Made by a program: the position numbers and the translations under genes. Below are positions 10,671 to 25,704 of a DNA stretch of 44,179 bases, one piece after another. Positions within the stretch are counted from its first letter, which is position 1; every line of letters begins with the position of its first letter. Source of the stretch: Gelidibacter pelagius. Its GTDB lineage: Bacteria > Bacteroidota > Bacteroidia > Flavobacteriales > Flavobacteriaceae. The stretch lies in the NCBI RefSeq assembly GCF_017581925.1, contig NZ_JAGEVG010000028.1, positions 1 to 44,179 of the forward strand. Direction: 5' to 3'. A model generated the notes under the pieces. That model was given only the letters and a program-made list of their open reading frames with translations, did not search any database and had not been told where the DNA came from.

Positions 10671-10728
10671 TATGGCTTGAATTTTCAGATATATGAAGAC
10701 TTGTGTTTGCCAAAATGCTGACACATGC

Positions 10729-10774
10729 CTCGTCACAAAGCCTTAAAAATACAAAACTACTTGGTAAAATCTGC
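10729..10774 (-). repeat. 46-bp direct repeat, copy 2, upstream of the S41 peptidase gene
   Basis: This is identical to 8347-8392 at an offset of 2382 bases. It begins 58 bases upstream of the peptidase ATG. The TAGTTTTG box of copy 1 is at 10752-10759. The two copies bracket the peptidase gene exactly, so either the gene was inserted by recombination or the regulatory segment was duplicated. Confidence 0.85.
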
Positions 10775-10854
10775 TGAGTTGAATTATTTGATTATAGAAA
10801 AATTGTAAAGTAGTGCAGCCATAACTGCTATCCTGGGTGTTTATGCTACTGGAG

Positions 10855-11277
10855 CTATTCGGCGATTTTAATTCCAGGATTAAGTTTTAACAAGTCGGCA
10901 ATCAATTCGTCATTGTTTTCTGGCGCAATATAGACTTCGTCATAGTTGTTGAACTTAATGATCAATCCTTTTGTGGTCATGGCTGGTTTAATCCCGCTCC
11001 ACATCGTTTTGCCGATCACTATTTCTTTGATTTTGGGAATTTCTATGCGTCCTCTTAAAAACCCAGAACGGTAAATTAATTGGTTCTTCTCAATTTTATA
11101 AACCGTATCAAAATAGATCCAAACTATCAGCGCTAACGGACTCAGTAAAGGCAAAAGAATAAATGGGTTTTTGGTAAAGGTATCTTTATCGAGAAAGAAG
11201 ATGGCAATGGGCAATAGCACCGCACCAATCAATAGGTAATTGATCAATCCTTTTCTCTTGGCTTTATATGTTTTCAT
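10855..11277 (-). CDS. Bacterial PH-domain (bPH_6-like) membrane protein
   Basis: This protein of 140 residues is counted from the internal ATG (MKTYKAKRKG); an ATG six codons earlier (11295) is also possible. Two hydrophobic helices (about 13-29 and 36-56) are followed by a cytoplasmic PH-like domain with YKIEKNQLIYRSGFLRGRIEI and EIPKIKEIVIGK. This matches the pattern of the bPH_6/DUF1200 family, whose function is unknown. It starts 20-40 bases after the stop of the DUF417 gene and may be in its operon. Two smaller proteins at 33261 and 37598 have a similar helix-plus-beta layout. Confidence 0.6.
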   Translation of the reverse strand: MKTYKAKRKGLINYLLIGAVLLPIAIFFLDKDTFTKNPFILLPLLSPLALIVWIYFDTVYKIEKNQLIYRSGFLRGRIEIPKIKEIVIGKTMWSGIKPAMTTKGLIIKFNNYDEVYIAPENNDELIADLLKLNPGIKIAE

Positions 11278-11315
11278 GCGATATATTCTGTACAAAAAAC
11301 TTGGTGCTGTGTTTT

Positions 11316-11933
11316 TTAGGATGGCACTTTACGCGCAGCATTTATGCGTTGGGCACAGTCTGAAGCAATGATCAATCCAGCCGCCATCATGATAATATCC
11401 TTTAAGACCAATCGTCCTGCACCAGAGAGATAAGGAAAACCATAAAAAGGGGTGGGCATATCGCCGCCTAAATTCGGTACATACACCTCAGGCGTTGTGA
11501 TGAGAAAGGTTAGGGTGATAATGGACATCCCAAAGGTGAGCAGCCCACCCCAGAGTCCGACTTTAGGAAACCAGATGCCCAAGAGGGTTAAGATGCCAAA
11601 AATCACAATAACGGTACCCAATCCGTAAGAGAAGAGGTAGGTGCCGTTAGATTCGTGCCATGCGATATTTTTCGCGACCATCTTGCCTTCAGGGTTTTTA
11701 TGCAGATGATAGGCTGCCACCGTTTTGCCTTCGGCATTGACTGCCGTGTCGTTGGTATGGTTATAGAAAAAACTCATAAAAGGGCTATTGGTTACAAAAG
11801 GCACGATGCCGTCTGCTTCATATTGAAAGACTTTTAAACCACCAATCCACACCATCACAATACAAATAGCGATGCGAATAAAGTTGATAAATAGGGATTG
11901 TCCGTTGCTTAAAAAGTTGAGTAGGTTTTGCAT
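11316..11933 (-). CDS. DUF417 / YkgB (RclC-like) membrane protein
   Basis: This 205-residue protein has four membrane helices. It carries typical DUF417 segments: RIAICIVMVWIGGLKVFQYEADGI at helix 1, a periplasmic loop of about 45 residues, and TPEVYVPNLGGDMPTPF before LVLKDIIMMAAGL. In Escherichia coli the paralogue RclC (YkgI/YkgB region) protects against reactive chlorine, but RclA and RclR are absent here. The gene follows a quinone oxidoreductase gene on the same strand with a 117-base gap, so a link to redox stress is plausible. Family assignment is firm; function is inferred. Confidence 0.82.
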   Translation of the reverse strand: MQNLLNFLSNGQSLFINFIRIAICIVMVWIGGLKVFQYEADGIVPFVTNSPFMSFFYNHTNDTAVNAEGKTVAAYHLHKNPEGKMVAKNIAWHESNGTYLFSYGLGTVIVIFGILTLLGIWFPKVGLWGGLLTFGMSIITLTFLITTPEVYVPNLGGDMPTPFYGFPYLSGAGRLVLKDIIMMAAGLIIASDCAQRINAARKVPS

Positions 11934-12050
11934 TGTAAAAAAAAATTAACGGCAAACATACAAATAACCCAACATTAAATGAAGGGCAGCTATTAGAAGA
12001 TTCCTGCATTTTTTGGAGCTGGAAGCCATTGGGACTTAAGCTGAAACGGT

Positions 12051-13025
12051 TCAATCCATGGTCAATAGGATTTTTCCAATATGGGTGCTGGTTTCCATCA
12101 GACGATGGGCTTCTGACGCTTCCTTTAATGGGAAGGTTTTGTAAATGACAGGTTCAATTTGCTTAGAACTAAAGAGCGGCCATATATTTTTTTCCACCGC
12201 TTTGGCAATCATGGTTTTGACGTGATCTGATTGGGGTTTTAAGAGGCTTCCGGTCAGCGTCAGATTTTTGCGCATCACCGTGAACAGGTCAATTTGGGCC
12301 GACATACTTTTCATGCCGTTGATATTGATGAGACGGCCCTTGTCATTTAAAATATCAAGATTCTTTTGCGTGTAGTCTCCACCAACCATGTCCAAGATGA
12401 CATCTATTTTTTCATCTTTTAAAAGCGTTTCAAAGGCTTGCTTTTTGTAATTGATGACCGTTCCGAGGTTCATTTCATTTAAAAACGCCATCTTTTTATC
12501 ACTTCCCACGGTGCTGTAAACTATGGAGCCTAAGGCTTTGGCCATTTGTAAACCTATGGTGCCAATGCCGCTCGTGCCGCCGTGGATCAATAATTTCTCT
12601 CCAGGCTTAAGTTGGCCCAGATGAAAGACGTTGAACCACACCGTAAAAACAGTTTCCGGAATGGCGGCCGCCTCTATTAAACTGATGCCTTCCGGTATGG
12701 ATAGACAATGGCTACTATCTACAGCAACATATTCGGCATAGCCACCGTTGGGGATTAGGGCACAGACTCTATCGCCAACCTGTTTATCTTTTACGGCCAT
12801 GCCGATTTCCACTATTTCTCCTGAAACTTCCAAGCCTGGAATCAAGGTTCCTGATGCTCCTTTGCCATAGGCGGCCATGTTTTCTCGGGTATTGATATCA
12901 CTCCGATTGATGCCTGCGGATTTTACTTTGATTAATACTTGATGTCTTTCCGGTTGGGGTTTTGGGGTTTCCTGCAATTGTAATACTTCAGGTCCCCCAG
13001 ATTTTGTAATATGTATGGCTTTCAT
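12051..13025 (-). CDS. Zinc-independent quinone oxidoreductase (PIG3-type MDR)
   Basis: This 324-residue medium-chain dehydrogenase/reductase has the N-terminal GroES-like domain and a Rossmann domain. The N terminus MKAIHITKSGGPEVLQL is typical of the PIG3/QOR group. KSAGINRSDINTRENM marks the substrate region, and GLEVSGEIVEIG is followed by the NADPH-binding loop HGGTSGIGTIGLQMAKALG (about 148-166). The zinc ligands of alcohol dehydrogenases are absent. It likely reduces quinones or enones with NADPH in the cytoplasm. A possible -7 box, TATCTTTA, lies upstream on the minus strand near 13052. The gene is divergent from the esterase gene at 13257. Confidence 0.88.
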   Translation of the reverse strand: MKAIHITKSGGPEVLQLQETPKPQPERHQVLIKVKSAGINRSDINTRENMAAYGKGASGTLIPGLEVSGEIVEIGMAVKDKQVGDRVCALIPNGGYAEYVAVDSSHCLSIPEGISLIEAAAIPETVFTVWFNVFHLGQLKPGEKLLIHGGTSGIGTIGLQMAKALGSIVYSTVGSDKKMAFLNEMNLGTVINYKKQAFETLLKDEKIDVILDMVGGDYTQKNLDILNDKGRLININGMKSMSAQIDLFTVMRKNLTLTGSLLKPQSDHVKTMIAKAVEKNIWPLFSSKQIEPVIYKTFPLKEASEAHRLMETSTHIGKILLTMD

Positions 13026-13205
13026 GCGTTCTTTTTGATTAGAGTTCCATAAAGATAATATATATTGAAATGATGTACGTTTGTGGATGACACATTGGTC
13101 CTACAATCGATCTTATTAGAGTAATCATTTAGGTCCATCTGTAGTTTCCAAAGCCGATGCCATCACAAACTGGTCACATCTTTGTTAATATATTATGATG
13201 ATTTA

Positions 13206-13237
13206 TTGTTTTATAAATCTATAAAAATGTAATTTCG
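13206..13237 (+). promoter_or_regulatory. Candidate promoter for the esterase-pepA unit
   Basis: TTG at 13206-13208 is followed after 21 bases by TAATTTCG (13230-13237), one mismatch from TAnnTTTG. The pair is about 20 bases before the ATG at 13257, consistent with a short leader. It is the best promoter candidate for the plus-strand arm of the amide-ligase cluster. Confidence 0.35.
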
Positions 13238-13256
13238 TTTTTTTAAACAATTTTAG

Positions 13257-14027
13257 ATGCTAGTGACGGAGTTTAGACCCATTATAAAGGTTATTGAAGA
13301 AGCGTATGAGATCCCGCATTTGAAGGCCACACGTAAGATTTCAGCCTTATTGCCCCACGACTATTATACGACAGATAAGCACTATCCCGTGCTTTATCTT
13401 CAGGATGGGCAGAACTTGTTCAATCCCATGGCGCCATTTGGCGATTGGGCTATCGATAAATCTTTGGAGAAATTGGCGCAGGAAGGCTTTAGTGACATCA
13501 TCATTATTGCCATTGACCACGGTAATCATGAGCGGATCAACGAATATCTGCCTTACTACCATCCACGTTATGGCGAAGGAAAAGGCAATTTTTATATCCA
13601 ATTCATCATCGAGAAATTGATTCCCTATATCAACAAGAATTACAGAACACTTACCGATTTTGAAAACACAGGTATCGGCGGCAGTTCTTTGGGCGGATTG
13701 ATCAGTTTATATGCAGGACTTCAAAATCCGGGAGTGTTTGGAAAGATGATGATTTTTTCGCCAAGTCTGTGGATTTCAAAGACCATATTTAACCAGACCA
13801 CCTCATTTAAGCCTTTACGAAAATCAAAAATTTACCTCTATTCCGGTGGTATGGAAAGCAATGAACATTTGCCAAATGCCCAGAGATTGGAGGCTATCTT
13901 TAGGGAGAAAATGGAGGAAAACCACGACATCGAATTTAAATTCTCGCTCAATGAAATTGGCGTCCACGCCGAAATATATTGGAGACATGAGTTTCCAAAA
14001 GCCGTCAAATGGCTCTATTTTAATTAA
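13257..14027 (+). CDS. Alpha/beta-hydrolase, esterase D/IroE-like (PF00756)
   Basis: The 256-residue hydrolase has the nucleophile S144 in GGSSLGG (141-147), preceded by the strand DFENTGI. LYLQDGQNLF (47-56) is a typical early strand-loop. The catalytic His is likely H237 in VHAEIYWRHEFP, and an acidic residue lies in YLYSGGMESNEH. There is no signal peptide, so it acts in the cytoplasm. It is five bases ahead of the leucyl aminopeptidase gene and on its strand, so they form one transcript. A second esterase of the same superfamily ends the minus-strand arm of the cluster at 21364. Related members hydrolyse thioesters, siderophore esters or acyl groups; the substrate here is unknown. Confidence 0.85.
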   Translation: MLVTEFRPIIKVIEEAYEIPHLKATRKISALLPHDYYTTDKHYPVLYLQDGQNLFNPMAPFGDWAIDKSLEKLAQEGFSDIIIIAIDHGNHERINEYLPYYHPRYGEGKGNFYIQFIIEKLIPYINKNYRTLTDFENTGIGGSSLGGLISLYAGLQNPGVFGKMMIFSPSLWISKTIFNQTTSFKPLRKSKIYLYSGGMESNEHLPNAQRLEAIFREKMEENHDIEFKFSLNEIGVHAEIYWRHEFPKAVKWLYFN

Positions 14028-14032
14028 ATACT

Positions 14033-15445
14033 ATGATTTTTAAACACGTTTCAAAAGTTAATACACATCAAGATGTGATTGTGCCTTGTAGGAAAGACCA
14101 ATTGGATCATCTCAAACAATTTATAGCGATCGAAGAACCTGATTTTAATGGTGAGTTCTCGACTGTTCAAATGCTGTATGGGCCCAAAGGCAATAGAGTA
14201 TATCTATTGGGTTTGGGAGAAGAAAAGGATGCCGTAAAAATTGATGAAGCTTTTAGAAAGCTGAGTTTTGACTATAAAAAGTATTGGAAAACCACTGTTC
14301 AGGTGGTTACGGCCGATTTGTCGGACGCAGAACTCCAAAAAGCACTAATTGGACTTGAAATGTCGGCCTACGACATCGGTAGTTTTAAAACAAAGAAAGA
14401 CGAGGTCAATGCCATTACTTTTGAGGTTGTCAATTCAAAAGACATTACAAATATACTTAAAGAAGCAAAAGCCATTGGTGCGACCATCAATCGAATTAAA
14501 ACCTTGGTAGATGCCCCCGCTAATCAGAAAACACCGGAATTTCTGGGCAAATGGGCTGAAGATTCCGCGAAAAATTCGAATTATAAATGTACTGTTCTGC
14601 ACGAAAAGGAACTCAAAGCACAAGGTTTTGATGCCGTAATGGCCGTTGGTCAGGGTAGTGTCAATCCACCAGTAGTCATCGTTACGGAATACATGCCAAA
14701 AAAGGACAGTGGTGTGGATATTGGTTTGGTGGGCAAGGGTATCACCTTTGATACCGGTGGTCTGTCCATTAAATCTTCTACCAATTTGCACTATATGAAA
14801 AGCGATATGGGCGGTGCCGCAGTCGTGTTGGGCGTGGTGGAGTTGGTGGCAAAACTAAAGCTTAACATCAATATTGTAGGCGTGGTCGCTTCCGCAGAAA
14901 ATGCGGTGGACAGTAATAGCTACAGACCTGGAGATGTGATCAACAGTTATTCAGGAAAGACTATTGAAATCATCGATACCGATGCTGAAGGCCGATTGGT
15001 ATTGGCAGATGGCTTGAGCTATATCATCAAGGAATTTCAACCAAAACAAGTGATCGACCTGGCAACCTTGACTGGAAGCGTCGTGCAAACATTGGGCTAT
15101 ACCGCCGCCGGAATGTTCACCAACAATACGGAGATGTCCCAAGACCTCTCCAAAATAGGTTTTGATACTAATGAACGTGTTTGGCCCTTGCCATTGTTTA
15201 CCGATTACGAAAGTGATCTGCACAGTGATATTGCCGATTTACGAAATTATAGTGGAAAGCCCGTTGCAGGTGCCATCACCGCTGCTAAATTCTTAGAAGC
15301 ATTTACGGATAAGCACAAAGCTTGGATGCATTTGGATATTGCGGGGGTATCCTTTGGCGATTCGCCCTATTCCAAAATGAAAAGTGCCAGTGGATTTGGG
15401 GTGCAATTAATTACAAATTATATTAAGAAGATATCAGGGAATTAA
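14033..15445 (+). CDS. pepA: M17 leucyl aminopeptidase
   Basis: This zinc/manganese exopeptidase has 470 residues. The metal and substrate motifs are in order: GKGITFDTGGLSIK, the segment MKSDMGGAA, ENAVDSNSYRPGDVI, and the signature DTDAEGRLVLADGL, where the Asp and Glu bind metals. The N-terminal domain is short, as in many Bacteroidetes. It removes N-terminal residues, with preference for Leu, and members of this family also split Cys-Gly. Because it sits inside a set of ATP-grasp and GCS2 ligases, it may process a peptide made by them, but a housekeeping role is equally likely. The gap to the next gene is 124 bases. Confidence 0.92.
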   Translation: MIFKHVSKVNTHQDVIVPCRKDQLDHLKQFIAIEEPDFNGEFSTVQMLYGPKGNRVYLLGLGEEKDAVKIDEAFRKLSFDYKKYWKTTVQVVTADLSDAELQKALIGLEMSAYDIGSFKTKKDEVNAITFEVVNSKDITNILKEAKAIGATINRIKTLVDAPANQKTPEFLGKWAEDSAKNSNYKCTVLHEKELKAQGFDAVMAVGQGSVNPPVVIVTEYMPKKDSGVDIGLVGKGITFDTGGLSIKSSTNLHYMKSDMGGAAVVLGVVELVAKLKLNINIVGVVASAENAVDSNSYRPGDVINSYSGKTIEIIDTDAEGRLVLADGLSYIIKEFQPKQVIDLATLTGSVVQTLGYTAAGMFTNNTEMSQDLSKIGFDTNERVWPLPLFTDYESDLHSDIADLRNYSGKPVAGAITAAKFLEAFTDKHKAWMHLDIAGVSFGDSPYSKMKSASGFGVQLITNYIKKISGN

Positions 15446-15569
15446 GCCTTTATTTTGTATTTTGTATCAAAATATAGATCATATAACATTTAGCTTCACT
15501 TTTTTAAATCTTAAATCATTTTTTGGTTTTTGATGTTCAAAGCTCCGCTATCCAAACTGCATTAAAACT

Positions 15570-16772
15570 ATGTCAAATAAACGACCACTCAATTTTCTAT
15601 GCGTAACCACGTATCATAAAGGCGCTGATTTCATTAAAAGCTGCAAAGCTGAAGGGAATAACGTCTATCTTTTGACCAAAAAGAAGCTGGAACATGAGGT
15701 TTGGCCTTGGGAAGCCATTGATGACGTGTTTTATGTGGACAACTGGAACCAAAATGACGTCACCAAAGGTATAGCTTATAAATTCAGGACTATAAAATTT
15801 GACCGTTTTGTTGCCTTGGACGATTTTGATGTTGAAAAAGTAGCACTTTTGAGGGAGCATTTCAGAATGCCTGGAATGGGACGGACGACTTCGCATTATT
15901 TTAGGGATAAATTGGCGATGCGTACAAAAGCGCAGGTAGAAGGCATAAATGTGCCTGAGTTTACAGCCTTGTTCCATGATGTGGATATCAATGCCTATGC
16001 AGATCGTGTGAGTCCGCCTTGGTTATTAAAACCACGTTTGGAAGCATCGGCAACTGGAATTCGAAAAATCAATAGTAGGGAAGAGCTGTGGCAAATTATC
16101 GATGTATTAAAAGATGAACGCGATAATTACTTGATCGAGAAATTTGCGCCTGGAGATGTGTATCATGTGGATAGTTTGATTGTTGACAGTAAAGTCGTTT
16201 TCGCCCGTGCAAGCAAATATTTGGATACACCGTTTGAAGTGGCGCATGGGGGCGGAGTGTTTAGATCGGCAACTTGCGAAATAGGTTCCAAAATAGATAA
16301 AGCGCTGACCAAAATGAATGCAGAGGTCATGAAAGCCTTCGGGATGCAGTTGGGTGCTTCGCATACAGAGTTTATTGCTTCTAAAGAAACTGGCGAATTG
16401 TTTTTTCTGGAAACCTCTTCAAGAGTCGGCGGTGCTAATTTAGCTGAAATGGTGGAATTTGCTTCTGGAATCAATCTCTGGGGCGAATGGGCACGAATTG
16501 AATCGGCAACGCTTAGAAAAGAAACTTATACTCTGCCAAAAGTTAAGAATCAACATGCCGGTATCGTCGTGTCTTTGAGTAAATTCGAGAATCCAGATAC
16601 GTCGAGCTTTAACGATCCTGAAATCGTCTGGAAAATGGATAAAAAATGGCATATCGGGATGATAGTGGTATCTGACAGTAGCGACCGAGTTATGGAATTG
16701 CTGGATAATTATACACAACGCATCGCTTCAGATTTTCATGCGAGTATTCCGGCGCCGGATAAGAGCCTGTGA
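15570..16772 (+). CDS. ATP-grasp ligase of the carnosine-synthase-like group
   Basis: This 400-residue protein has a Rossmann-like N-terminal domain (LNFLCVTTYHKGADFIK at about 7-23) and an ATP-grasp core. The ATP-binding Lys is K154 in WLLKPRLEASATGI, then YLIEKFAPGDVYHVDSL (about 187-203). The metal-binding end is TEFIASKETGELFFLET with E267 and E281, then SSRVGGAN. The usual E-x-N is E-T-S here, so one metal ligand is changed. The most similar known layout is that of BL00235/carnosine synthase-type ligases, which join a carboxylate to an amine through an acyl phosphate. Its stop is 359 bases from the end of the opposite arm. The substrate is unknown. Confidence 0.8.
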   Translation: MSNKRPLNFLCVTTYHKGADFIKSCKAEGNNVYLLTKKKLEHEVWPWEAIDDVFYVDNWNQNDVTKGIAYKFRTIKFDRFVALDDFDVEKVALLREHFRMPGMGRTTSHYFRDKLAMRTKAQVEGINVPEFTALFHDVDINAYADRVSPPWLLKPRLEASATGIRKINSREELWQIIDVLKDERDNYLIEKFAPGDVYHVDSLIVDSKVVFARASKYLDTPFEVAHGGGVFRSATCEIGSKIDKALTKMNAEVMKAFGMQLGASHTEFIASKETGELFFLETSSRVGGANLAEMVEFASGINLWGEWARIESATLRKETYTLPKVKNQHAGIVVSLSKFENPDTSSFNDPEIVWKMDKKWHIGMIVVSDSSDRVMELLDNYTQRIASDFHASIPAPDKSL

Positions 16773-16793
16773 TGAAGGGATTAGGTTTAAGGG

Positions 16794-16828
16794 ACCCGCC
16801 CGAACGTGCCTTTTCGGTACGGGCGGGT
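16794..16828. terminator. GC-rich hairpin between the convergent arms
   Basis: ACCCGCCCG (16794-16802) pairs with CGGGCGGGT (16820-16828), with a short inner GCC/GGT stem. It lies 22 bases after the plus-strand stop. There is no long T-run, so it may act as a bidirectional transcription barrier rather than a classical terminator. Confidence 0.5.
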
Positions 16829-16889
16829 TAGGGATTAGTAGTTCAGGAAAAAAATAATTAAATCACGTAATTTAAACGCAAGATTTTTG

Positions 16890-17120
16890 ACACAGATTTC
16901 ACGGATTTTCACTGATTTTTTTTTAAACACGAATTGCACGGATTTTCACGGAATCGGTAATCCCTTTAAATCCCCGTAGAAGAGCAAAATCTCTCTATGG
17001 AACTCTGTGTCTCCTCTGTGGAACTCTATGAAATAGCTCTTCAATCCATGAATTAGGCCTCATTATACCACCGAGAATCCTTCAAAATCAGTGAATATCT
17101 GCCAAATCAGCGTCATCCGC
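16890..17120. repeat. Phylum-typical degenerate intergenic repeat block
   Basis: Units with TTNCACGGATTTTCAC occur at about 16898-16913 and 16934-16949, and remnants such as AATCAGTGAATATCTGCCAA (from about 17085) and CAGCGTCATCCGCGTTCC follow. Similar CACGGATTTTCACTGATT sequences are widespread between genes in Bacteroidetes. No coding sequence is seen in 16829-17131. Confidence 0.6.
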
Positions 17121-17131
17121 GTTCCATCAAA

Positions 17132-18331
17132 TCAAGGCTCAAAAAACCCCGTACTCCCTCCAACCCAAGTCTTATCCTTATTGTATTTCACACCCACCAT
17201 TTCGCCTTTACTTATGCGTATGAGGTTGCTGACAATTTGAGTCTTATTGGTTTTGCTATTATGAAGCAACATCATTCGGATTTCACATTTCGCAGGGTCA
17301 TCCATCGTTTCGATAATAGGCGCATAAGCCACTTTTTCCTGCAACAAATAATTTGATTTGTCTTCCACAGCATCAATCATCGCTTTATCAACGTGAATCT
17401 GCACCCCAGCACCTGCGAAAGAATAAAGTGGTTTTAGGACATAGTTCTCTAAATCGGTTGGAATGGATTCAAGTTTGTCCAAGTAGTAGGATTTCGGTAC
17501 ATAATCGCCCTTTAGCAAAGGCATCGTGTACTTACTGATCCTGAAAAACCAATTGGGATGTCCAATCCATTCAACATCCACTTCGTCCTTAAAATCGTAT
17601 TCGCGAACTAAATCTGGACGCTGATCCAATTCGTCAAAAATAATACGGTTATAAATCTTTAGTACTTGAATCTCGGAGCCTTTATCATCTACGTAAAACA
17701 ATTGCTTTCCTCGTTTGATCAGCTTTGAAATACACAATACTTTGATACCCAATAAGGCTTCGGTAGCGTAGAAATCAATGGCCGTAGCCTGTTTTTCTGG
17801 TTCAATTTCAAGAAGGATGACTTGCTTTGGATCGGTATCACCAACAATTTCTGTACGTAACAATTCGATATAGGCTTCCGAACTCAATCCGTTAAGGTGT
17901 TGTGAGAAATCTTCAGGAATGCCGTCATAATGCTTGCGGTACATGCCGCCGACCAATTCCTGGAAAAAGTAGAGTGACGGAAACCCTTGCAATTCTATGA
18001 GCTTGGGTGTTAAATTACCGTTTTCATCCAAACAGACACCGAAATCCAATTGTATAAACTTAGAGTGGTCATCTTCATTGGGGACTCTCATGCTGTCCTT
18101 GAAAAACGCGCCTTCAGTCAGTTCCTTAAAGTTAGGCTGATCGATGACTTTCATAATGTCTTCACAAGCTTCAACCAATTTCTTTTTTAATTCCTTGGGA
18201 ATGAACACCGGTGTTTCGGCAATTTTAAATTTAGGAGTATAGTCGAATTGAGCAATGATATCTGCCAGCATTGCGGCATACTTTTCTTCAGAAAATTGAG
18301 CGTTAAACGCCTTGCGTAAGGTGGCAATCAT
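17132..18331 (-). CDS. Circularly permuted ATP-grasp-like ligase
   Basis: This 399-residue protein is not a well-named family. The acidic motif KLIELQGFPSL (110-120) precedes the lysine-containing region YVLKPLYSFAGAGVQI (297-312, Lys300). In ordinary ATP-grasp enzymes the metal-binding E-x-N comes last. In glutathionylspermidine synthase and CP_ATPgrasp families the order is reversed, as here. Another metal or substrate segment is CEIRMMLLHNSK (349-360), followed by KYNKDKTWVGGSTGFFE at the end. It begins six bases after the amidotransferase stop, so it is the last gene of the minus-strand operon. The N-terminal 30 residues are unassigned. It likely forms an amide bond at ATP cost. Confidence 0.65.
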   Translation of the reverse strand: MIATLRKAFNAQFSEEKYAAMLADIIAQFDYTPKFKIAETPVFIPKELKKKLVEACEDIMKVIDQPNFKELTEGAFFKDSMRVPNEDDHSKFIQLDFGVCLDENGNLTPKLIELQGFPSLYFFQELVGGMYRKHYDGIPEDFSQHLNGLSSEAYIELLRTEIVGDTDPKQVILLEIEPEKQATAIDFYATEALLGIKVLCISKLIKRGKQLFYVDDKGSEIQVLKIYNRIIFDELDQRPDLVREYDFKDEVDVEWIGHPNWFFRISKYTMPLLKGDYVPKSYYLDKLESIPTDLENYVLKPLYSFAGAGVQIHVDKAMIDAVEDKSNYLLQEKVAYAPIIETMDDPAKCEIRMMLLHNSKTNKTQIVSNLIRISKGEMVGVKYNKDKTWVGGSTGFFEP

Positions 18332-18337
18332 AATGTT

Positions 18338-19156
18338 TTATGAGATTAGTTGTGCTGACAATTGTTTCATGGCACGTTCAATAAACTTCGGTAGAATGAT
18401 TTTATGGGTTCTGATGATTTTATCCGGATCATCCATTTTGTCCATCATATCATCATATTTCTCTTCGCCAAAATTGGCGATGACTTTGAGCTTATTGGCT
18501 TCTCCGAGAAAATGTGCTCTCATGCCAACAGGATCAGCTTCAGGGTGAAATTGTGTGCCAACAAATTCTTTCGAGAAACGAACCGCCATTATGGCACGTT
18601 CATAACTGACATGGCTTCGTATTTTTTCGAGACTTAAAATGGAAGCACCTTGTTCCTTAAAAACCTCTAAACGGGGTTGTACCAATTGCCAATCGCGTGA
18701 ATCCACAGCGTAAAACGGATCGTCCAATCCTTCTAAAAGTGGATCTTTTAAGCCCTTTTTAGTTTTGTGAATCGGTAAAACGCCAAAAGAAGTACTCCGT
18801 CTTGGCTTCATTTCTCCCAATTTGAAATAGTCGCACACCACCTGAAACGAATAACAGATAAAGAACATATATTTCTTTTGGTGCTGTGAGGTCTTGTTAA
18901 AATCCCACAGGTCCTGTACTAATTTGAGATAAGGAATACGCCACGGGCCATCTTCAAGCGGACTGTCAGGTCCGCCACTTGAAATATAAATGTCAAAAGA
19001 GGTGTCAGGTATTTCTTGAGCACCTCTAACATTGAATATTTTATAATCTACTTCATCTTCAAAGCCTCTTACAATATCAGCAATACAACGCAAACCTTGA
19101 TTGGCTTGGTTGTTATTCATATCGAGAATGGCTACTTTAAATTTATCTTTAAGCAT
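18338..19156 (-). CDS. Class I glutamine amidotransferase-like protein
   Basis: This 272-residue protein has the nucleophile C101 in FFICYSFQVVCD and the His-Glu pair H204/E206 in VGTQFHPEADP, giving the Cys-His-Glu triad of class I GATases. An SSGGPDSP loop (59-66) forms part of the glutamine site. The C-terminal 60 residues form a helix-rich extension (GEEKYDDMMDKMDD). It likely releases ammonia from glutamine, or hydrolyses a gamma-glutamyl amide, for the neighbouring ligases. It lies 10 bases downstream of the GCS2 ligase gene and 6 bases upstream of the CP-ATP-grasp gene, so these three are tightly coupled. No known GATase partner domain is fused to it. Confidence 0.83.
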   Translation of the reverse strand: MLKDKFKVAILDMNNNQANQGLRCIADIVRGFEDEVDYKIFNVRGAQEIPDTSFDIYISSGGPDSPLEDGPWRIPYLKLVQDLWDFNKTSQHQKKYMFFICYSFQVVCDYFKLGEMKPRRSTSFGVLPIHKTKKGLKDPLLEGLDDPFYAVDSRDWQLVQPRLEVFKEQGASILSLEKIRSHVSYERAIMAVRFSKEFVGTQFHPEADPVGMRAHFLGEANKLKVIANFGEEKYDDMMDKMDDPDKIIRTHKIILPKFIERAMKQLSAQLIS

Positions 19157-19166
19157 GTAATTTTTT

Positions 19167-20261
19167 CTAAGTTCCTAAAATGGTCTGCTCCATAATATAG
19201 TCCACCACTTTAGTCAAATCCTTGGTTTCTTCGAAAACAGCGAGCTGTCTGTCAGCACCTGTGCCATTTTTTATCATGGTTTTGACGTGTTCTATTTCCT
19301 TTCGGGAACCGAGCTCATCCACAACATCATCTACGAAATTAAGCAATTCGAGCATTAAATCTTTCGTGTTTACTTCACATTCCTTGCCAAAGTCGATCAT
19401 ACTGCCATCAAGTCCGTATCTGCTGGCGCGCCATTTGTTCTCATTTATCAATGCACGATGATAGAGCATAAAGTTAAGATTTTGTGTTCTCAGCTTATAA
19501 AGTTTTGCTACCAAGGCCTGAATTAATGCAGCAATGCTCAAGGTTTCTTCAATGGTCATCGGTACGTCACAAATACGTACTTCCAAGGTTGGGAAGAATG
19601 GATGCATACGAATATCCCACCATATTTTTTTAGGATTGTCAATACAATTCGTTTTGATCAGTACATTTATATAATGCTCATATTCCGCAACAGTTTGAAA
19701 AACTCCGGGAATTCCTGTTCTTGGAAATTTATCAAAAACTTTCGAACGAAATGATTTAAAGCCTGTATTTCGACCTTCCCAAAACGGCGAATTGGTTGAT
19801 AAAGCATATAAATGCGGTAAGAAATAGCGCATGGCGTTGGTTAAATGCAAGGACATTTGTTTGTCTTCTATTCCCACATGCACATGGAGTCCGAAAATTA
19901 AGTTCGAACGTGCTGTATCTTGTAGTTCATGCACGATTTCGTCGTACCGTGGGTTTGGTGTAATCAGTTGTGTTTCCCACTTCGTAAAAGGATGGGTTCC
20001 CGCAGCGCCAATTTTAAAACCTAAAGAGTTGGCAATTTCAGAAATCGATTTGCGCAAATGGGTAAGATCCTTTCTGGCCTCCGTAATATCATTACAGATA
20101 TTGGTGCCAACTTCCACTACCGCTTGGTGCATTTCTGCCTTGACCTGGTCATTCAATATTTTTTCGGCTACGGTAACAATTTGTTGGTCATGCGAGATCA
20201 GTTCCCGCGTTGTTGGACAGATGACCTGATATTCTTCTTCAATGCCTAATGTAAACTTCAT
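19167..20261 (-). CDS. GCS2-family carboxylate-amine ligase (YbdK-like)
   Basis: This 364-residue member of the GCS2 superfamily (gamma-glutamate-cysteine ligase type 2) joins a carboxylate to an amine through an acyl phosphate. The metal-binding start FTLGIEEEYQVI (3-14) is followed by HQAVVEVGTN (45-54), GLHVHVGIED (124-133), and LEVRICDVPMTIEE. The length equals that of YbdK. Its gene is between an ATP-grasp gene and a GATase gene, with a hairpin in the 66-base upstream gap. The family includes enzymes of glutathione, butirosin and other side chains, so glutamate is a plausible but unproven substrate. Confidence 0.88.
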   Translation of the reverse strand: MKFTLGIEEEYQVICPTTRELISHDQQIVTVAEKILNDQVKAEMHQAVVEVGTNICNDITEARKDLTHLRKSISEIANSLGFKIGAAGTHPFTKWETQLITPNPRYDEIVHELQDTARSNLIFGLHVHVGIEDKQMSLHLTNAMRYFLPHLYALSTNSPFWEGRNTGFKSFRSKVFDKFPRTGIPGVFQTVAEYEHYINVLIKTNCIDNPKKIWWDIRMHPFFPTLEVRICDVPMTIEETLSIAALIQALVAKLYKLRTQNLNFMLYHRALINENKWRASRYGLDGSMIDFGKECEVNTKDLMLELLNFVDDVVDELGSRKEIEHVKTMIKNGTGADRQLAVFEETKDLTKVVDYIMEQTILGT

Positions 20262-20286
20262 AAAATCGGGTGGTTTATATGAAAAT

Positions 20287-20316
20287 CTTTCAGTCCCGAA
20301 GTATCGAGACTGAAAG
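20287..20316. terminator. Stem-loop inside the amide-ligase operon
   Basis: CTTTCAGTC (20287-20295) pairs perfectly with GACTGAAAG (20308-20316), with a CCGAAGTATCGA loop. On the transcript it falls between the ATP-grasp stop (20328) and the GCS2 start (20261), followed by AUUUUC. It may stabilise or attenuate the message. Confidence 0.55.
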
Positions 20317-20327
20317 GTTAGTGAATC

Positions 20328-21290
20328 TTATTTATAAACAGTCTTTTTGCCAGTGATCTGATCTTTAACAAATGTGCCCCATGTAAGGTTCATTTTGTCT
20401 TTCTTGTATTGTTTTGCTTTGTTAATGGCCATATTAGCAGCATTTTCAACAATCCAGTCAAAATTTTCCTGACCTACAGAATTGATATCTGCATCTGGCG
20501 CTGGGTTACAGAAGTCAATAGCATACGGGATGCCGTCGCGAATAGCAAACTCTACCGTATTGAAATCGTAGCCTAATGCTTTATTCAAGCGGATAGAATA
20601 GTTTTTAACCAAATCTAAAATCTCTTGTTTTACAGGAGGTCCATCAATCACATAACGTAAGTGGTGCGGATTTCTTGGCTCATATTGCATGATATGAACG
20701 TTGTCAGTATCTAACACGTAACATCTGAAATATTCCGTAAAATTGATTTCCTCTTGGAGCATCATGACCAAATTCTCTGTCTCTCCATGTTTTTTCCATA
20801 GATCTTGAGGGTTTTCAACGCGATACACGCTCTTCCAACCACCGCCATCATGAGGTTTCATATAGGCAGGGAAGCCAATAGTATCAAACATATGTTCCCA
20901 AGCAAATGGAAATTTCATGTTTCGGAATGAATTTTCATCTGTGTCCGGTGGACGATGTGATGTTGGTAAAATAAAGGTTTTTGGTACTGGAACACCTACT
21001 TTTTCTGCGAGGGCATTGTTGAAGAATTTTTCGTCAGCACTCCACCAAAATGGGTTGTTGATGACTGCCGTACCTGAAATAGCCGCATTTTTAAGGAAGG
21101 CGCGATAAAATGGCACATCCTGAGAAATCCTGTCTATAATAACCGCATAATCTGTTGGTTTAGCTTGCTCCACCATATCGATGGAAACAGCTTCCGCCAT
21201 TATCCCCTTTACCTTTTTTTCATTGACGCGATCAATAAACGCTTGAGGGAATGTATTCTCTTGTCCGAATAGGATGCCTATTTTCTTCAT
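20328..21290 (-). CDS. ATP-grasp ligase, RimK/D-Ala-D-Ala ligase-like
   Basis: This 320-residue protein starts with MKKIGILFGQENTFPQAFI. The ATP-grasp core has K145 in AYMKPHDGGGWKSV (142-155). The metal-binding segment IDFCNPAPDADINSVG (258-273) carries D259-x-x-N262, a variant of E-x-N. A conserved FWWSADEKFFNNALAEKVGV segment begins at residue 81. It shows no similarity in sequence to the 400-residue ATP-grasp protein on the other strand or to the CP-type one at 17132, so the cluster carries three distinct ligases. The gene is 73 bases after the esterase gene, with a stem-loop just before its ATG. Confidence 0.82.
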   Translation of the reverse strand: MKKIGILFGQENTFPQAFIDRVNEKKVKGIMAEAVSIDMVEQAKPTDYAVIIDRISQDVPFYRAFLKNAAISGTAVINNPFWWSADEKFFNNALAEKVGVPVPKTFILPTSHRPPDTDENSFRNMKFPFAWEHMFDTIGFPAYMKPHDGGGWKSVYRVENPQDLWKKHGETENLVMMLQEEINFTEYFRCYVLDTDNVHIMQYEPRNPHHLRYVIDGPPVKQEILDLVKNYSIRLNKALGYDFNTVEFAIRDGIPYAIDFCNPAPDADINSVGQENFDWIVENAANMAINKAKQYKKDKMNLTWGTFVKDQITGKKTVYK

Positions 21291-21306
21291 AAATTTTAGT
21301 TTTATT

Positions 21307-21326
21307 ATTTCCTCGAAGGAGGAAAT
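21307..21326. promoter_or_regulatory. Perfect 8-bp stem-loop just upstream of the ATP-grasp start
   Basis: ATTTCCTC (21307-21314) pairs with GAGGAAAT (21319-21326) around GAAG. On the minus strand the arm ends 16 bases before the ATG at 21290, close to the ribosome footprint. It could tune translation or mark an RNA-processing site. Confidence 0.45.
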
Positions 21327-21363
21327 CTATTTAATATCTGTTTTGGTTGTTTGTTTTTAGTTT

Positions 21364-22068
21364 TTAAAGTTTTGAAAGGTATTCTGGAAACATTTGACGC
21401 CATAACGGCCAATCATGCTTAGCCCACTTACGTACGTCATACCAAAAAGGAATGTTCTTGTCGCGGAGTATTTTGGCCATTTTGTCATTGGCTTCCAAAC
21501 AAATATCCCATTCACCGACTCCAAGAATAATTTTCATTTTCCATAGATCGGGATGGTTATTGCCCGGTAGATAGTCTATGGGATTATTAAAGAATACGTT
21601 ATCATCATAATGTCGCCCAACAAATGAGGTAATGTCAAACGCACCGCTCATGCTGAACATGTGGCTGACTTTTTCAGGATGTTTGAAGGCGAAATTTGAT
21701 GCTTGGTACCCGCCAAAGCTTGGACCTGCAACGGCTACTTTTGGTAAGCGTTTTTCATGACAAATTGAATTGACTACTTCATTCATGATAAATTGGTCAT
21801 ACCAATTATGATTTTTTGCCCGTTGTGCGGGGTGAATTTTTTTGTTATACCAGCTCAGTTCGTTAATGCCATCTGGACAGTAAATCTGTACTTTACCCTG
21901 TTCAACAAACCATCGGACGGATTCCACAAGTTTCATGTCTTTACATTCATTGTGTTTGCCCATAGTAGTTGGGAAAAGTATTACGGGATACCCTGAATGT
22001 CCAAAAACAAGCATTTCTATGTCTTTACTAAGGGTCGGTGAGTACCATTTGTGATGTTGTTCTTTCAA
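21364..22068 (-). CDS. Alpha/beta-hydrolase esterase at the head of the ligase operon
   Basis: This 234-residue PF00756-type hydrolase has the nucleophile S117 in AGPSFGGYQASNF (114-126). The acid is probably D188 in VGEWDICLEAN, and the histidine H218 in KWAKHDWPLW. The N-terminal HKWYSPTLSKDIEMLVFGHSGYPVILFPTT replaces the usual signal peptide, so it is cytoplasmic. It is the first gene of the minus-strand arm. The upstream gap, 22069-22459, is AT-rich with no clear promoter box and serves the divergent TPR gene also. Similar esterases often lie beside this ligase set in my recollection of Bacteroidetes genomes, but I cannot verify it here. Confidence 0.85.
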   Translation of the reverse strand: MKEQHHKWYSPTLSKDIEMLVFGHSGYPVILFPTTMGKHNECKDMKLVESVRWFVEQGKVQIYCPDGINELSWYNKKIHPAQRAKNHNWYDQFIMNEVVNSICHEKRLPKVAVAGPSFGGYQASNFAFKHPEKVSHMFSMSGAFDITSFVGRHYDDNVFFNNPIDYLPGNNHPDLWKMKIILGVGEWDICLEANDKMAKILRDKNIPFWYDVRKWAKHDWPLWRQMFPEYLSKL

Positions 22069-22459
22069 TATATTATCTTTTAATGGGTTAGGGTAAAATT
22101 GTAAACTAAGAACGGATGCTTCTTTTTGTGCAGAAGTTTAGTTTGATTGATTATTATTAAACGAGTACAACAATATACTTTTTTTAATTACAAATGCAAT
22201 AGCATATATCAGGATTCTTAAATTTTTGTGAAAAACATAAAGAATATGAAGTAATTTTAATTTTTCATAGTTTATTTTATGTCTTAAGGTGGTTTAATTT
22301 CATTTTGTCCCTTTTTTTTAATTTCGGTTGGTTTTGTAGTCAATGCCTGAGAGTCATTTATTTACAGTTCATCCTTCTGATCTGACAGTTCAGACCTCTA
22401 AGTTTTTTGAATTTATAGAGTCAACCGATATTTGGGTATATAAACCAATATTAATTGAG

Positions 22460-23083
22460 ATGAAGCATATAATTATCATTACCGTATTATTTGTGACTGG
22501 AATTTTATCTGCACAAAGTGACTATGACAAAGGCATGGAAAAGGCATTTGAACTTTGGAAAAATGATCAATGGACCGAAGCCGAGCAGTTTTTTGAGCGC
22601 ATCGCCGCCGCTGAACCAGATGCATGGTTGCCAAATTATTATATTGCCCAAATGAACAGTTTAAAATCTTGGGAAGAAAAGGACGCTAATAAGGTAAAGG
22701 GCCAATTGGAGAAAGCGCAAAACTTTCTCAATGATGCCATGGCCATTGAAAAGGACAATGCTGATCTCTTGGTCATGCAAGCACAGATATTGACCAACTG
22801 GGTGGCTTTTGACGGGATGACCTATGGGATGAAATATTCTGCAAAAATATCAGAGCTATACAATAAAGCTTATGCTTTGGCTCCCGAAAATCCGATGGTA
22901 GTTCTCGGGAGGGCTGAGTGGAATATGGGAAGCGCACGTTATTTTGGACAGGACACCAAACCATTTTGTAAAGAAGTGGAAAAATCCATTGAACTTTTTG
23001 CTAACTTTAAGCCTGAAACTGCTTTTTATCCCAATTGGGGACGGGAGCGTGCCGAATCCGTATTAAAATCCTGCAACGACTAA
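22460..23083 (+). CDS. Exported TPR-containing protein
   Basis: I start this 207-residue protein at ATG 22460, which gives the signal peptide MKHIIIITVLFVTGILSAQ; the upstream frame adds 39 residues with no export features. The mature part has two or three TPR-like helical repeats. They include ELWKNDQWTEAEQFFERIAAAEPD (about 32-55) and an AKISELYNKAYALAPENPMVVLG segment (about 125-147). It probably acts in the periplasm as a binding scaffold. It ends 24 bases before the sensor kinase gene, so the kinase may monitor something in its complex. Similar small TPR proteins upstream of LytS-type kinases are common in flavobacteria. Confidence 0.72.
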   Translation: MKHIIIITVLFVTGILSAQSDYDKGMEKAFELWKNDQWTEAEQFFERIAAAEPDAWLPNYYIAQMNSLKSWEEKDANKVKGQLEKAQNFLNDAMAIEKDNADLLVMQAQILTNWVAFDGMTYGMKYSAKISELYNKAYALAPENPMVVLGRAEWNMGSARYFGQDTKPFCKEVEKSIELFANFKPETAFYPNWGRERAESVLKSCND

Positions 23084-23107
23084 TTCACGTTAAATAGATA
23101 CAAACTC

Positions 23108-24442
23108 ATGACCATCAAATCCATTAAAAGTTTATACCTCACGTTTATTATAGGATGCGCGGTATATCTCATAGGGAACTTTCTGTCAAACGGGTTTGAT
23201 TATAGCACAATCAATGATTTTTTAATTGACTTTGGGTTTTACCAACTTTATGCTTTCCTTTTAGGATATACCAATTATTTCTACTTTGCCTATCTCGAGA
23301 AACTGACCTGGAAAAAAGAAGATGGTTTAAAACGAATTATTGTTGGTATAACCGGTTCGGTCATACTTACTATGAGCGGCTTGTTTGTTTTGAACGGTTT
23401 GCAGTATTATCTCTATAGAGGAAGCTCATGGATTGAGTTTTTGCAAACACAACGCTGGAGTAACTACAGTTTTGGACTTTGGATTACCCTGACCATTGTT
23501 ATTATTTTTCATTTTGTTTATTTCTATAACCGTTATCAACAGAATAAGATTAAGGAGCAAAAGGTCATTGCCCATGCCGCCAGCGCGCAATTTGAAAGTC
23601 TGAAAAATCAGATCGATCCTCATTTTTTGTTCAATAGCTTGAATGTATTGACTTCGCTGATCGAAGAAAATCCTGATAACGCACAGCGCTTTACAGTGTC
23701 TTTATCGAAGATTTACAGATATGTTTTAGAACAAAAGGATAAAGAGTTGGTGACGGTTGCCGAAGAATTGGAGTTTGCCAAAACCTATATGAACTTGTTG
23801 ACAATGCGTTTTGAAAACAGTCTTACTTTTGAGATTCCAGAGCACTTCAACAATGAGGATGCAAAGGTGGTGCCCTTGTCCCTGCAATTGCTTTTGGAAA
23901 ATACCATTAAGCATAATACGGTGAGCGAATCAAAACCTTTGCATATCAAAATCACGGTGGAAGATAACTATTTGGTAGTGCAGAATAATTTACAGAAAAA
24001 AGAAGTCCTTCAAACCAGAAAAGGGGTAGGACTGCAAAATATTGTCAATAGATATGGTATCCTAACCAAACGAAAGGTGTTGATTGACGAATCAAGCACC
24101 TATTTTAAGGTGAAAATACCTGTCTTGACCAAACAAATTTCAATCATGGAAACAAAACATTTATATAACGAAGATACCGCCTATTATAGGGCAAAAAAGA
24201 GAGTGGAAGACATCAAGGGTTTCTTTGGGAACTTAGTGTCCTACTGCGTCGTCATTCCGTTTTTAATATTTATCAACTACAAAACCTCATGGAATTATCA
24301 ATGGTTTTGGTTCCCAATGTTGGGCTGGGGGATGGGCATCATCTTTCATGCTTTTGGCGTATTTGGATACGGAAAGGAATGGGAAGAACGAAAAATAAAA
24401 GAAATATTGGAAAAAGAACAACAGACTAACACATGGAACTAA
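23108..24442 (+). CDS. LytS-type sensor histidine kinase with C-terminal 2TM domain
   Basis: This 444-residue kinase has four N-terminal membrane helices (about 9-27, 42-60, 78-98, 122-140). The phosphoacceptor H172 is in the His_kinase block FESLKNQIDPHFLFNSLN. The ATP-binding GHKL elements include the N-box LLLENTIKHN and GVGLQNIVNRYG. Uniquely, residues about 355-440 form a second membrane module with RAKKRVEDIKGFFGNLVSYCVVI and EWEERKIKEILEKEQ, the 2TM domain pattern. The kinase overlaps the next gene, a free-standing 2TM protein with the same motifs. It likely phosphorylates the LytTR regulator at 24949. Confidence 0.88.
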   Translation: MTIKSIKSLYLTFIIGCAVYLIGNFLSNGFDYSTINDFLIDFGFYQLYAFLLGYTNYFYFAYLEKLTWKKEDGLKRIIVGITGSVILTMSGLFVLNGLQYYLYRGSSWIEFLQTQRWSNYSFGLWITLTIVIIFHFVYFYNRYQQNKIKEQKVIAHAASAQFESLKNQIDPHFLFNSLNVLTSLIEENPDNAQRFTVSLSKIYRYVLEQKDKELVTVAEELEFAKTYMNLLTMRFENSLTFEIPEHFNNEDAKVVPLSLQLLLENTIKHNTVSESKPLHIKITVEDNYLVVQNNLQKKEVLQTRKGVGLQNIVNRYGILTKRKVLIDESSTYFKVKIPVLTKQISIMETKHLYNEDTAYYRAKKRVEDIKGFFGNLVSYCVVIPFLIFINYKTSWNYQWFWFPMLGWGMGIIFHAFGVFGYGKEWEERKIKEILEKEQQTNTWN

Positions 24443-24756
24443 TGGAACCGAATTATTTTGAAAAGGAACGTTACGATCGCGCTAAGAAACGCGTAAAAAA
24501 AATCTCTGGATTTTACAGTCATCTGTTGGTTTATGTAGTCATTAACCTAATGATTGTAGTGGTGAATGTCCAGCAATTGGATGTAGGTGAAAGTTATTTT
24601 AAATGGCAGAACTTCACGACATTGTTTTTCTGGGGCATCGGACTTTTAGCGCATGGCCTATCGGTGTTTATGCCGTATGTCGTCTTAGGAAAAAACTGGG
24701 AAGAACGAAAAATAAAAGAATTTATGGAAAAGGAGCGGAAAAGTAAGTGGGAGTGA
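24442..24756 (+). CDS. Small 2TM-domain membrane protein
   Basis: This protein has 104 residues from ATG 24442. That ATG overlaps the kinase stop as TAATG; an ATG three codons earlier (24433) is also possible. It repeats the kinase's C-terminal domain: RAKKRVKKISGFYSHLLVYVVIN, two helices, and NWEERKIKEFMEKER. The strong identity of the end motifs shows that it came from the same ancestor as the fused domain. It may pair with the kinase in the membrane or modulate its output. The family function is unknown. Confidence 0.8.
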   Translation: MEPNYFEKERYDRAKKRVKKISGFYSHLLVYVVINLMIVVVNVQQLDVGESYFKWQNFTTLFFWGIGLLAHGLSVFMPYVVLGKNWEERKIKEFMEKERKSKWE

Positions 24757-24948
24757 TGGTTCAAGGTTCAGTGTTCAACATTCGAGATTCAGGATTCAGG
24801 ATTGAAGTTCAAGTTTCAAGATTATAGAAAATAGAGAATAGAATTAAGTATCAAGAATCAAGAGGCAAGAACATAGAAAAAAGAACATAGAACAAGAATC
24901 AATAACTTTGGAAATCCCTAATGCCTAATACCTAATCCCTAATTCAAA
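24757..24948. repeat. Low-complexity degenerate repeats between 2TM gene and regulator
   Basis: The segment has repeating AGATTCAGGATTCAAG-like units (about 24780-24825), AGAACATAGAA units (about 24868-24893), then CCTAAT heptamer-like units: CCCTAATGCCTAATACC and TAATCCCTAATTC (about 24915-24943). No coding sequence or stable hairpin is seen. Such tracts often occur between LytS and LytTR genes in flavobacteria. Confidence 0.6.
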
Positions 24949-25704
24949 ATGAACATCATCATCATAGAAGACGAAAAACCATCCGCAAGACGTTTGCAAC
25001 GCATGTTGGCTAATTTACAGATTGAAGCCAATACCCTGTTGCATTCTGTTGAGGAATCCATTGCTTGGTTTTCAGAAAATACCCATCCCGATTTGATATT
25101 TTTGGACATCCAACTGAGTGATGGTTTGTCTTTTGAAATCTTTGAAGCTATGGAAATCAATTCGGCGGTTATTTTCACAACCGCTTATGATGACTATGCA
25201 TTACAGGCCTTCAAGCTCAATAGTATTGATTATTTGTTGAAACCGATTGATGAAGATGATCTCGCAAAGGCGGTTACAAAGTATAAGACGCGCTTGCCGG
25301 TACAGAAATCGGTGGTGATTGATTTTGATGACATCCGTAAAATGTTGGTCAATCCGTTGGATCGGACTTATAAAAAGCGGTTCTCGGTTAAAATAGGACA
25401 GCATTTGAAACTGATCGCTGCAGAAGATATCGAATGCTTTTACAGCGAGAATAAAGGCACCTATGCCTATACCTGCGATGGACGAAACTATCTTTTGGAT
25501 GTGAGTTTGGAACAGTTGGAACCCGATTTAGAGCCAGCCCTATTTTTTCGGGTGAGTAGAAAATTCTATGTGAATATCGATGCCATTAAGGACATGATCA
25601 GTTATACCAATTCACGAATTCAAATCAAATTAAAGACCTTTAACGAACACGACATTATCGTGGCACGAGAACGGGTCAAGGATTTTAGGGAGTGGTTGGA
25701 ATGA
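24949..25704 (+). CDS. LytTR family response regulator
   Basis: The 251-residue regulator has a receiver domain (MNIIIIEDEKPSARRL) with phosphoacceptor D53 in FLDIQLSDGLS. The conserved Thr is in FTTAYDDYAL, and the Lys in YLLKPID. The LytTR DNA-binding domain follows (about 140-250), with KRFSVKIGQHLKLI, IECFYSENKGTYAY, FRVSRKFYVNIDAI and a final RVKDFREWLE. The whole unit, TPR protein, kinase, 2TM protein and regulator, reads on one strand. Its targets cannot be told from the window. The stop is directly adjacent to the stop of the convergent LETM1-like gene. Confidence 0.92.
   Translation: MNIIIIEDEKPSARRLQRMLANLQIEANTLLHSVEESIAWFSENTHPDLIFLDIQLSDGLSFEIFEAMEINSAVIFTTAYDDYALQAFKLNSIDYLLKPIDEDDLAKAVTKYKTRLPVQKSVVIDFDDIRKMLVNPLDRTYKKRFSVKIGQHLKLIAAEDIECFYSENKGTYAYTCDGRNYLLDVSLEQLEPDLEPALFFRVSRKFYVNIDAIKDMISYTNSRIQIKLKTFNEHDIIVARERVKDFREWLE

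Follow-up and report, generated by a model that had tools for sequence, protein, structure and literature searches.

A conserved eight-gene cluster of Gelidibacter pelagius and other Bacteroidota as a candidate pathway for a small glutamyl peptide or peptide-amine

For GS-fold ligases that lie beside GATase-like thiol peptidases, a role in making glutathione or similar peptides has been predicted (PMC2588565, in excerpt), and ligase-plus-peptidase operons of such a sort have been predicted before (PMC2588565 and PMC4431377, both in excerpt). Among ATP-grasp enzymes, YgiC and YjfC are called peptidylpolyamine synthetases in the excerpted text of PMC12568646, which cites a title on peptide-spermidine ligase activity. 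Here we describe a cluster of eight genes, at positions 13,257 to 22,068 of a 44,179-nucleotide stretch of Gelidibacter pelagius (contig NZ_JAGEVG010000028.1, assembly GCF_017581925.1), which was analyzed as a whole and is called the window below. Each of its enzyme types is known, but no paper on their combination or on its product was found among the matches listed in the open-licence literature. A survey by Iyer et al. from 2009 reportedly predicted amidoligase operons in which several ATP-grasp and GS-fold ligases share a neighborhood with peptidases.

With a probability of roughly 60%, the eight genes work together as an orphan non-ribosomal pathway, spread across Bacteroidota, whose predicted product is a small (gamma-)glutamyl peptide or a peptide-amine. 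The reasons for assuming one unit are the conserved gene order, the co-occurrence and the conserved catalytic positions. A sequence-only reading of the window had proposed that these genes belong together, that they encode amide-forming ligases, and that one of them is an ammonia source; the first two proposals are supported and the third is not. All eight open reading frames (ORFs) that it had listed are present, and the genes at 17132, 18338 and 19167 are indeed separated by 6 and 10 bases. Its family calls stood as well, except that neither Pfam nor NCBIfam assigns a family to the gene at 17132 and that the one at 20328 scored below curated cut-offs. The cluster is composed as follows, with the basis of each assignment in brackets.

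13257..14027, plus strand: estA, an alpha/beta-hydrolase of the Esterase family PF00756 (Pfam, triad)
14033..15445, plus strand: M17, a leucyl-aminopeptidase-like enzyme (Pfam Peptidase_M17, conserved residues)
15570..16772, plus strand: AG1, an ATP-grasp ligase closest to L-amino-acid ligases (Pfam, 4wd3 match)
17132..18331, minus strand: CPAG, a circularly permuted ATP-grasp ligase of the glutathione synthetase/GspS/YgiC fold (predicted fold)
18338..19156, minus strand: GAT, a class-I GATase-fold protein, perhaps a gamma-glutamyl-peptidase-type hydrolase (Pfam, fold, triad)
19167..20261, minus strand: GCS, a GCS2/YbdK-type carboxylate-amine ligase (Pfam, NCBIfam, motif)
20328..21290, minus strand: AG2, a RimK/R2K-type ATP-grasp ligase, both family matches being below cut-off (Pfam, NCBIfam)
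21364..22068, minus strand: estB, an alpha/beta-hydrolase of the Esterase family PF00756 with a TTG start, the first gene of the minus-strand run (Pfam, triad)

Gene order was compared in the best 80 of 472 relatives that an alignment of CPAG retrieved from a genome collection, with at most 10 kb of flanking sequence for each. This set is biased to close relatives (nine loci are from Gelidibacter), and contig ends truncate some of the loci. By tblastn, GAT was found in 74 of the 80 loci, AG2 in 63, GCS in 58, estB in 54, estA in 51, AG1 in 40 and M17 in 39, the estA count including a divergent esterase (~25-35% identity) that adjoins estB or AG2 in other lineages. The profile-based order estB> AG2> GCS> GAT> CPAG> AG1< M17< estA< was shared by 36 of the 80 loci, and one more had it with M17 split. 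In the eight-gene loci, estA-M17-AG1 ran convergent with the core. Subsets of this order made up 29 loci, six of them with CPAG alone. It was departed from in 13 loci, where a divergent esterase adjoined estB or AG2, and in a single locus with AG1 inverted. The median distance between the profile matches of GAT and CPAG was 19 bases (n = 74), and that between GCS and GAT 22 bases (n = 58). L094 and L095, two loci from a different family within the order, carried all eight genes on one strand, as estA M17 AG1 estB AG2 GCS GAT CPAG. No fusions between cluster genes were found in loci L014-L173.

Beyond the eight genes, no further family was present in more than 12 of the 80 loci when ORFs of at least 90 amino acids were clustered. 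The genes directly beside the cluster in the window, at 22343-25704, were named by eye as a TPR protein, a histidine kinase with a two-transmembrane (2TM) region, a small 2TM protein and a LytTR-type response regulator. They were present in at most 9 of the 80 loci (tblastn) and therefore lie outside the unit, which ends where the sequence-only reading had drawn it. No Rfam RNA, riboswitches included, was detected in 12900-22500 at E up to 1. Three families, also named by eye, occurred in 10-12 loci of seemingly single lineages: a fumarate hydratase-like protein (12), a class-III aminotransferase (11) and a short-chain dehydrogenase (10), for example in L078 (12513-13769), L036 and L083. Between CPAG and AG1, four Gelidibacter loci (L018, L020, L021, L046) had a small ORF resembling, by eye, a RelE/ParE-type toxin, which partly accounts for the variable CPAG-AG1 gap. 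In relatives of one genus (L094 at 10285-12915, L012, L013), CPAG was followed on the opposite strand by a gene resembling, by eye, cyanophycin synthetase; in L094 and L012 it came directly after CPAG.

Co-occurrence was determined in 392 Bacteroidota genomes, drawn evenly with a minimum completeness of 85. CPAG was detected in 115, AG2 in 135, GCS in 130 and GAT in 87 of them (75, 91, 80 and 59 of 174 when counted by genus). CPAG and AG2 were found together in 111 genomes, CPAG alone of the two in 4, AG2 alone in 24 and neither in 253 (Fisher 9e-68); for CPAG and GCS the respective numbers were 110, 5, 20 and 257. All four genes were present in 65 genomes, CPAG, AG2 and GCS without GAT in 41, none in 241, and other subsets in 45. 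The trio of ligases was carried by 106 of the 115 CPAG genomes, ~27% of the sample. Co-occurrence in related genomes had been named as the test of the cluster by the sequence-only reading, and it was passed both by the shared order and by this trio.

Genes that were scattered over the genome still co-occurred. In one family (f39), CPAG stood alone in L123, L125, L128 and L131, and each of these genomes had AG2 and GCS at other places. The CPAG of the 15 loci L117-L131 was divergent (306-409 bits) and stood alone, with GCS and AG2 elsewhere in 13 of the 15 genomes. The CPAG genomes without a detected AG2 (G200, G210, G275, G373) may reflect assembly gaps or real losses. Among 148 genomes of the order, 21 had AG1 at E up to 1e-60, each of them one of the 25 that carried CPAG (Fisher 8e-22); the other 4 of these 25 lacked it. 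In G054 and G466, AG1 and CPAG were on different contigs, yet both present. We regard GCS, AG2 and CPAG as a widely shared trunk and AG1-M17-estA as an add-on module, which suggests that a dipeptide part is made and trimmed in some lineages. AG2, the sole gene tried against plasmids, had no tblastn match at 1e-5 among 72,556 plasmid records.

The trunk ligases differed in how closely they matched described families. GCS matched Pfam GCS2 (PF04107) at 4.8e-64 and exceeded the cut-offs of both NF010039 and TIGR02050 (NCBIfam). It matched YbdK at 3e-63, and G6, E8 and E10 of its G-h-E-x-E motif were invariant in all 16 aligned sequences. AG2 matched Pfam R2K_2 at 2.3e-5 with 24.7 bits, below the curated cut-off of 26.2, and the NCBIfam RimK family TIGR00768 at 4.9e-9 with 35.9 bits, below the cut-off of 143.4; its matches to solved structures were weak and generically ATP-grasp (best 0.006). 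For CPAG, no Pfam family was found at E 0.001, GSP_synth included, and no NCBIfam family. The AlphaFold2 (AF2) model of CPAG had a pLDDT (predicted local distance difference test) of 91.9, and its closest folds, as revealed by Foldseek, were glutathione synthetase (1m0w, 5.7e-15), the GspS-like 3n6x, Escherichia coli YgiC and YjfC, and Cp1B (9cjn), with 7uk8 among the accessions; identity to these fold neighbors was 10-17%. The model supports the assignment of CPAG to the circularly permuted ATP-grasp enzymes of the glutathione synthetase/GspS/YgiC fold. Six residues were invariant in 25/25 aligned sequences (D96, E113, Q115, K300, E350, N384), which are putative metal and ATP ligands by their position rather than by superposition. 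Cp1B uses an Arg before the Asp (PMC12568646, in excerpt), for which CPAG has no obvious counterpart, position 94 being Gln, Val or Ala.

The GATase-like protein GAT matched Pfam GATase (PF00117) at 3.6e-7. The fold that ranked first against its predicted structure (pLDDT 92.0) was Arabidopsis gamma-glutamyl peptidase 1 (9k7i, 2.9e-12, template modeling (TM) score 0.67), nearly tied with SMU.1228c (3l7n, 3.7e-12) and followed by DnfC, MetA and further GATases and homoserine acyltransferases; by sequence profile, GAT was nearest MetA (2e-5). A Cys101-His204-Glu206 triad, Q105 and the oxyanion residues G61-G62-P63 were invariant in 25/25 sequences. GAT therefore has the triad and the oxyanion GGP of class-I glutamine amidotransferases. 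It also combines a gamma-glutamyl peptidase fold with the triad, a combination that is not diagnostic, as other GATase-fold families match too.

The three genes of the add-on module, together with estB, likewise keep their catalytic residues. AG1 matched Pfam ATP-grasp_4 at 3.3e-6, and its nearest solved relative was the L-amino-acid ligase 4wd3, known as RizA (5e-24 over 258 profile positions). K154, E190, E267, E281 and R285 were invariant in 11/11 sequences and are presumably the ATP-grasp catalytic positions. AG1 thus resembles the L-amino-acid ligases both in its closest solved relative and in the catalytic positions kept. It departs from them in that, among the 148 genomes of the order, it was found only with CPAG, and ligation itself is predicted from sequence. 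The cluster thus holds four distinct types of ligase whose catalytic positions are kept, which fits the amide-bond synthesis that had been proposed. M17 matched Pfam Peptidase_M17 at 1.3e-112, with K235, D240, K247, D258, D317, E319 and R321 invariant in 11/11 sequences; these are presumably the metal and active-site residues. The two esterases matched PF00756 at 7.7e-31 and 2.3e-9. The triad of estA, with Ser144 in a G-x-S-x-G motif, Glu200 and His237, was invariant in 9/9 aligned sequences, and Ser117, Asp188 and His218 of estB in 15/15. Since the catalytic residues are kept in the aligned sets, all eight enzymes look active.

Other lineages replace some of these enzymes. Their arrangement was read from six-frame profiles, around CPAG in 30 of the 45 CPAG genomes without GAT and around AG2 in 17 of the 24 AG2 genomes without CPAG. 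An M29 aminopeptidase was located between GCS and CPAG in 8 of the 30 loci (L104, L105, L112, L114, L154-L157), where Pfam PF02073 identified two of the enzymes and a profile made from four of the sequences identified the others. Another ATP-grasp, CP2, followed AG2 in 10 of the 17 loci (L134-L142, L144) and was itself followed by GAT in nine; in L135 the order was AG2 CP2 GAT esterase AG1. The remaining seven loci had AG2 alone, six of them with weak AG2 scores of 218-361 bits. CP2 was not recognized by the CPAG profile at 1e-4. Two CP2 proteins were compared with the circularly permuted ATP-grasp models PF14403 and PF04174, and that of L141 was over both cut-offs, that of L136 below both. 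These are the models for the ATP-grasp of the CP-ATP-grasp/Alpha-E/transglutaminase system (PMC3597751, in excerpt), and CPAG matches neither. None of the neighbor families recurring in up to 12 of the 80 loci was recognized by eye as Alpha-E, and the cluster is distinct from that system. The swaps show that these lineages retain a slot for the RimK-like ligase, one for the circularly permuted ligase and one for the hydrolase, although the enzymes differ.

The main clue to the type of pathway is that GCS is paired with a ligase of the glutathione synthetase fold and a hydrolase of the GATase fold. In the simplest scheme, a short non-ribosomal chain, GCS would activate a carboxylate, likeliest the gamma-carboxylate of glutamate, and join it to an amine to give a (gamma-)glutamyl amide. 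CPAG would lengthen this product at its carboxyl end by an amino acid or amine, and AG2 would attach another residue. Where AG1 is present, as here, it may supply or add a dipeptide part. Protecting or terminal residues could be taken off by GAT, or by M29 in some other lineages, and by M17, and the two esterases may split an ester or thioester bond or take part in release.

Several observations weigh against this reading of the cluster. CPAG stands alone in six of the 80 loci, and among the 115 CPAG genomes GCS was not found in five and AG2 not in four; the co-occurrence P values ignore shared ancestry. Neither GAT nor M29 was adjacent in 22 of the 30 CPAG loci from GAT-less genomes, some of which are on short contigs. 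GAT resembles amidotransferases and MetA as well as a peptidase. The M29 substitution is no proof of trimming, and M29 might replace M17 instead, which was not seen in those loci. M17 itself may have a housekeeping role, as it is the only M17 found in its genome. For a plain peptide the esterases would not obviously be needed, which makes them the weakest part of the mechanism, and the order of steps is a guess.

The glutathione pathway with its gamma-glutamyl peptidase is similar in having a GCS-type ligase with the GhExE motif, a ligase of the glutathione synthetase fold (both of the features looked for) and a GATase-fold protein. It is dissimilar in that CPAG has low identity to its fold neighbors, in that the cluster has two more ATP-grasps, an aminopeptidase and two esterases, and in that the bacillithiol gene bshC is present. 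The COOH-NH2 ligases found beside GATase-like thiol peptidases share the pairing of a GS-fold ligase with a thiol peptidase. They form a family distinct from GCS2, and their pairing was described for Proteobacteria and without ATP-grasps in the excerpted text (PMC2588565). That the product is a glutathione-like low-molecular-weight thiol is unlikely on balance. For such a thiol, GCS would make gamma-Glu-Cys, CPAG would add a third residue and AG2 a fourth, GAT and M17 would recycle the product, and the esterases would cleave S-acyl adducts. The YbdK-like GCS, the eukaryotic-type glutathione synthetase fold of CPAG and the top fold match of GAT would suit this, as would the PF00756 matches of both esterases. 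However, bshC was found in 70/70 genomes, 40 with CPAG and 30 without, the latter all from the same order (68 of the 70 over the cut-off), which leaves no thiol gap to fill, and no extra family such as a thiol-using enzyme exceeded 12 of the 80 loci. A replacement of bacillithiol was rejected on the same 70 genomes, a result that does not argue against an additional thiol.

We also doubt that the cluster makes a peptide-polyamine conjugate, with CPAG as a peptide-spermidine ligase like YgiC, YjfC or GspS. The strong fold matches to the GspS-like 3n6x, YgiC and YjfC, and the activity of YgiC and YjfC as cited in PMC12568646 (in excerpt), speak for such a function, as does a sequence profile match to YgiC, although that match is weak (E 0.039). 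On the other side, CPAG fails the GSP_synth model and usually occurs with GCS and AG2 (106/115), and no polyamine-synthesis gene was recognized by eye among the recurring neighbors, for which no annotation search was made; one of them, in 11 loci, is the class-III aminotransferase-like gene.

If GAT supplied ammonia, as the sequence-only reading had assumed, the product would be a peptide amide, such as a dipeptide-amide osmolyte. The PF00117 match, the intact triad with Gln105, and DnfC and other GATases close behind the top fold match are all compatible with this. The top match itself is nevertheless a gamma-glutamyl peptidase (near tie with other GATase folds), and the GAT slot is held in eight loci by an M29 aminopeptidase, from which glutamine-derived ammonia is not expected; a fusion of GAT to a ligase was not seen in the loci searched for fusions. 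An ammonia source was thus not borne out, and we consider a peptide amide made in this way rather improbable. Because M29 substitutes in its slot, GAT more likely trims than supplies ammonia.

Much less probable is that the ligases act on a protein or a graspetide-type ribosomal peptide and not on a free small molecule. RimK modifies a ribosomal protein. R2K-type ligases have been proposed as protein modifiers (PMC4431377, in excerpt). No family of small ORFs (20-120 amino acids) was present in more than 5 of 63 loci, so that no Pup-like protein or precursor peptide was seen, and membership in the graspetides, a class of ribosomally synthesized and post-translationally modified peptides, was rejected for the same reason. 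A phage or defence system was rejected as well, with no PHROGs match for the five proteins tried and no PADLOC match for any of the eight. That the genes are neighbors without a common function is hardly credible: M17, the sole one in its genome, could be housekeeping, and the cluster is split over two strands here, but the conserved order, the co-occurrence and the one-strand loci L094 and L095 contradict it for GCS, GAT, CPAG, AG2 and AG1.

The one-pathway reading of the cluster has a wider form, which we put forward tentatively. The fixed trio of GCS2, circularly permuted ATP-grasp and RimK-like ligase might make a core metabolite of the phylum, a gamma-glutamyl-type peptide or peptide-amine that exists beside bacillithiol, with enzymes swapped in slots that are kept. 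The swaps, M29 for GAT and CP2 for CPAG, constrain what each slot must do, and the gene set is a short list of directly testable enzymes. Because the ligase trio is carried by 106 of 392 genomes, a rare secondary metabolite is an unlikely product, and the compound may instead serve a major phylum as a cofactor or osmolyte, or in storage or redox chemistry.

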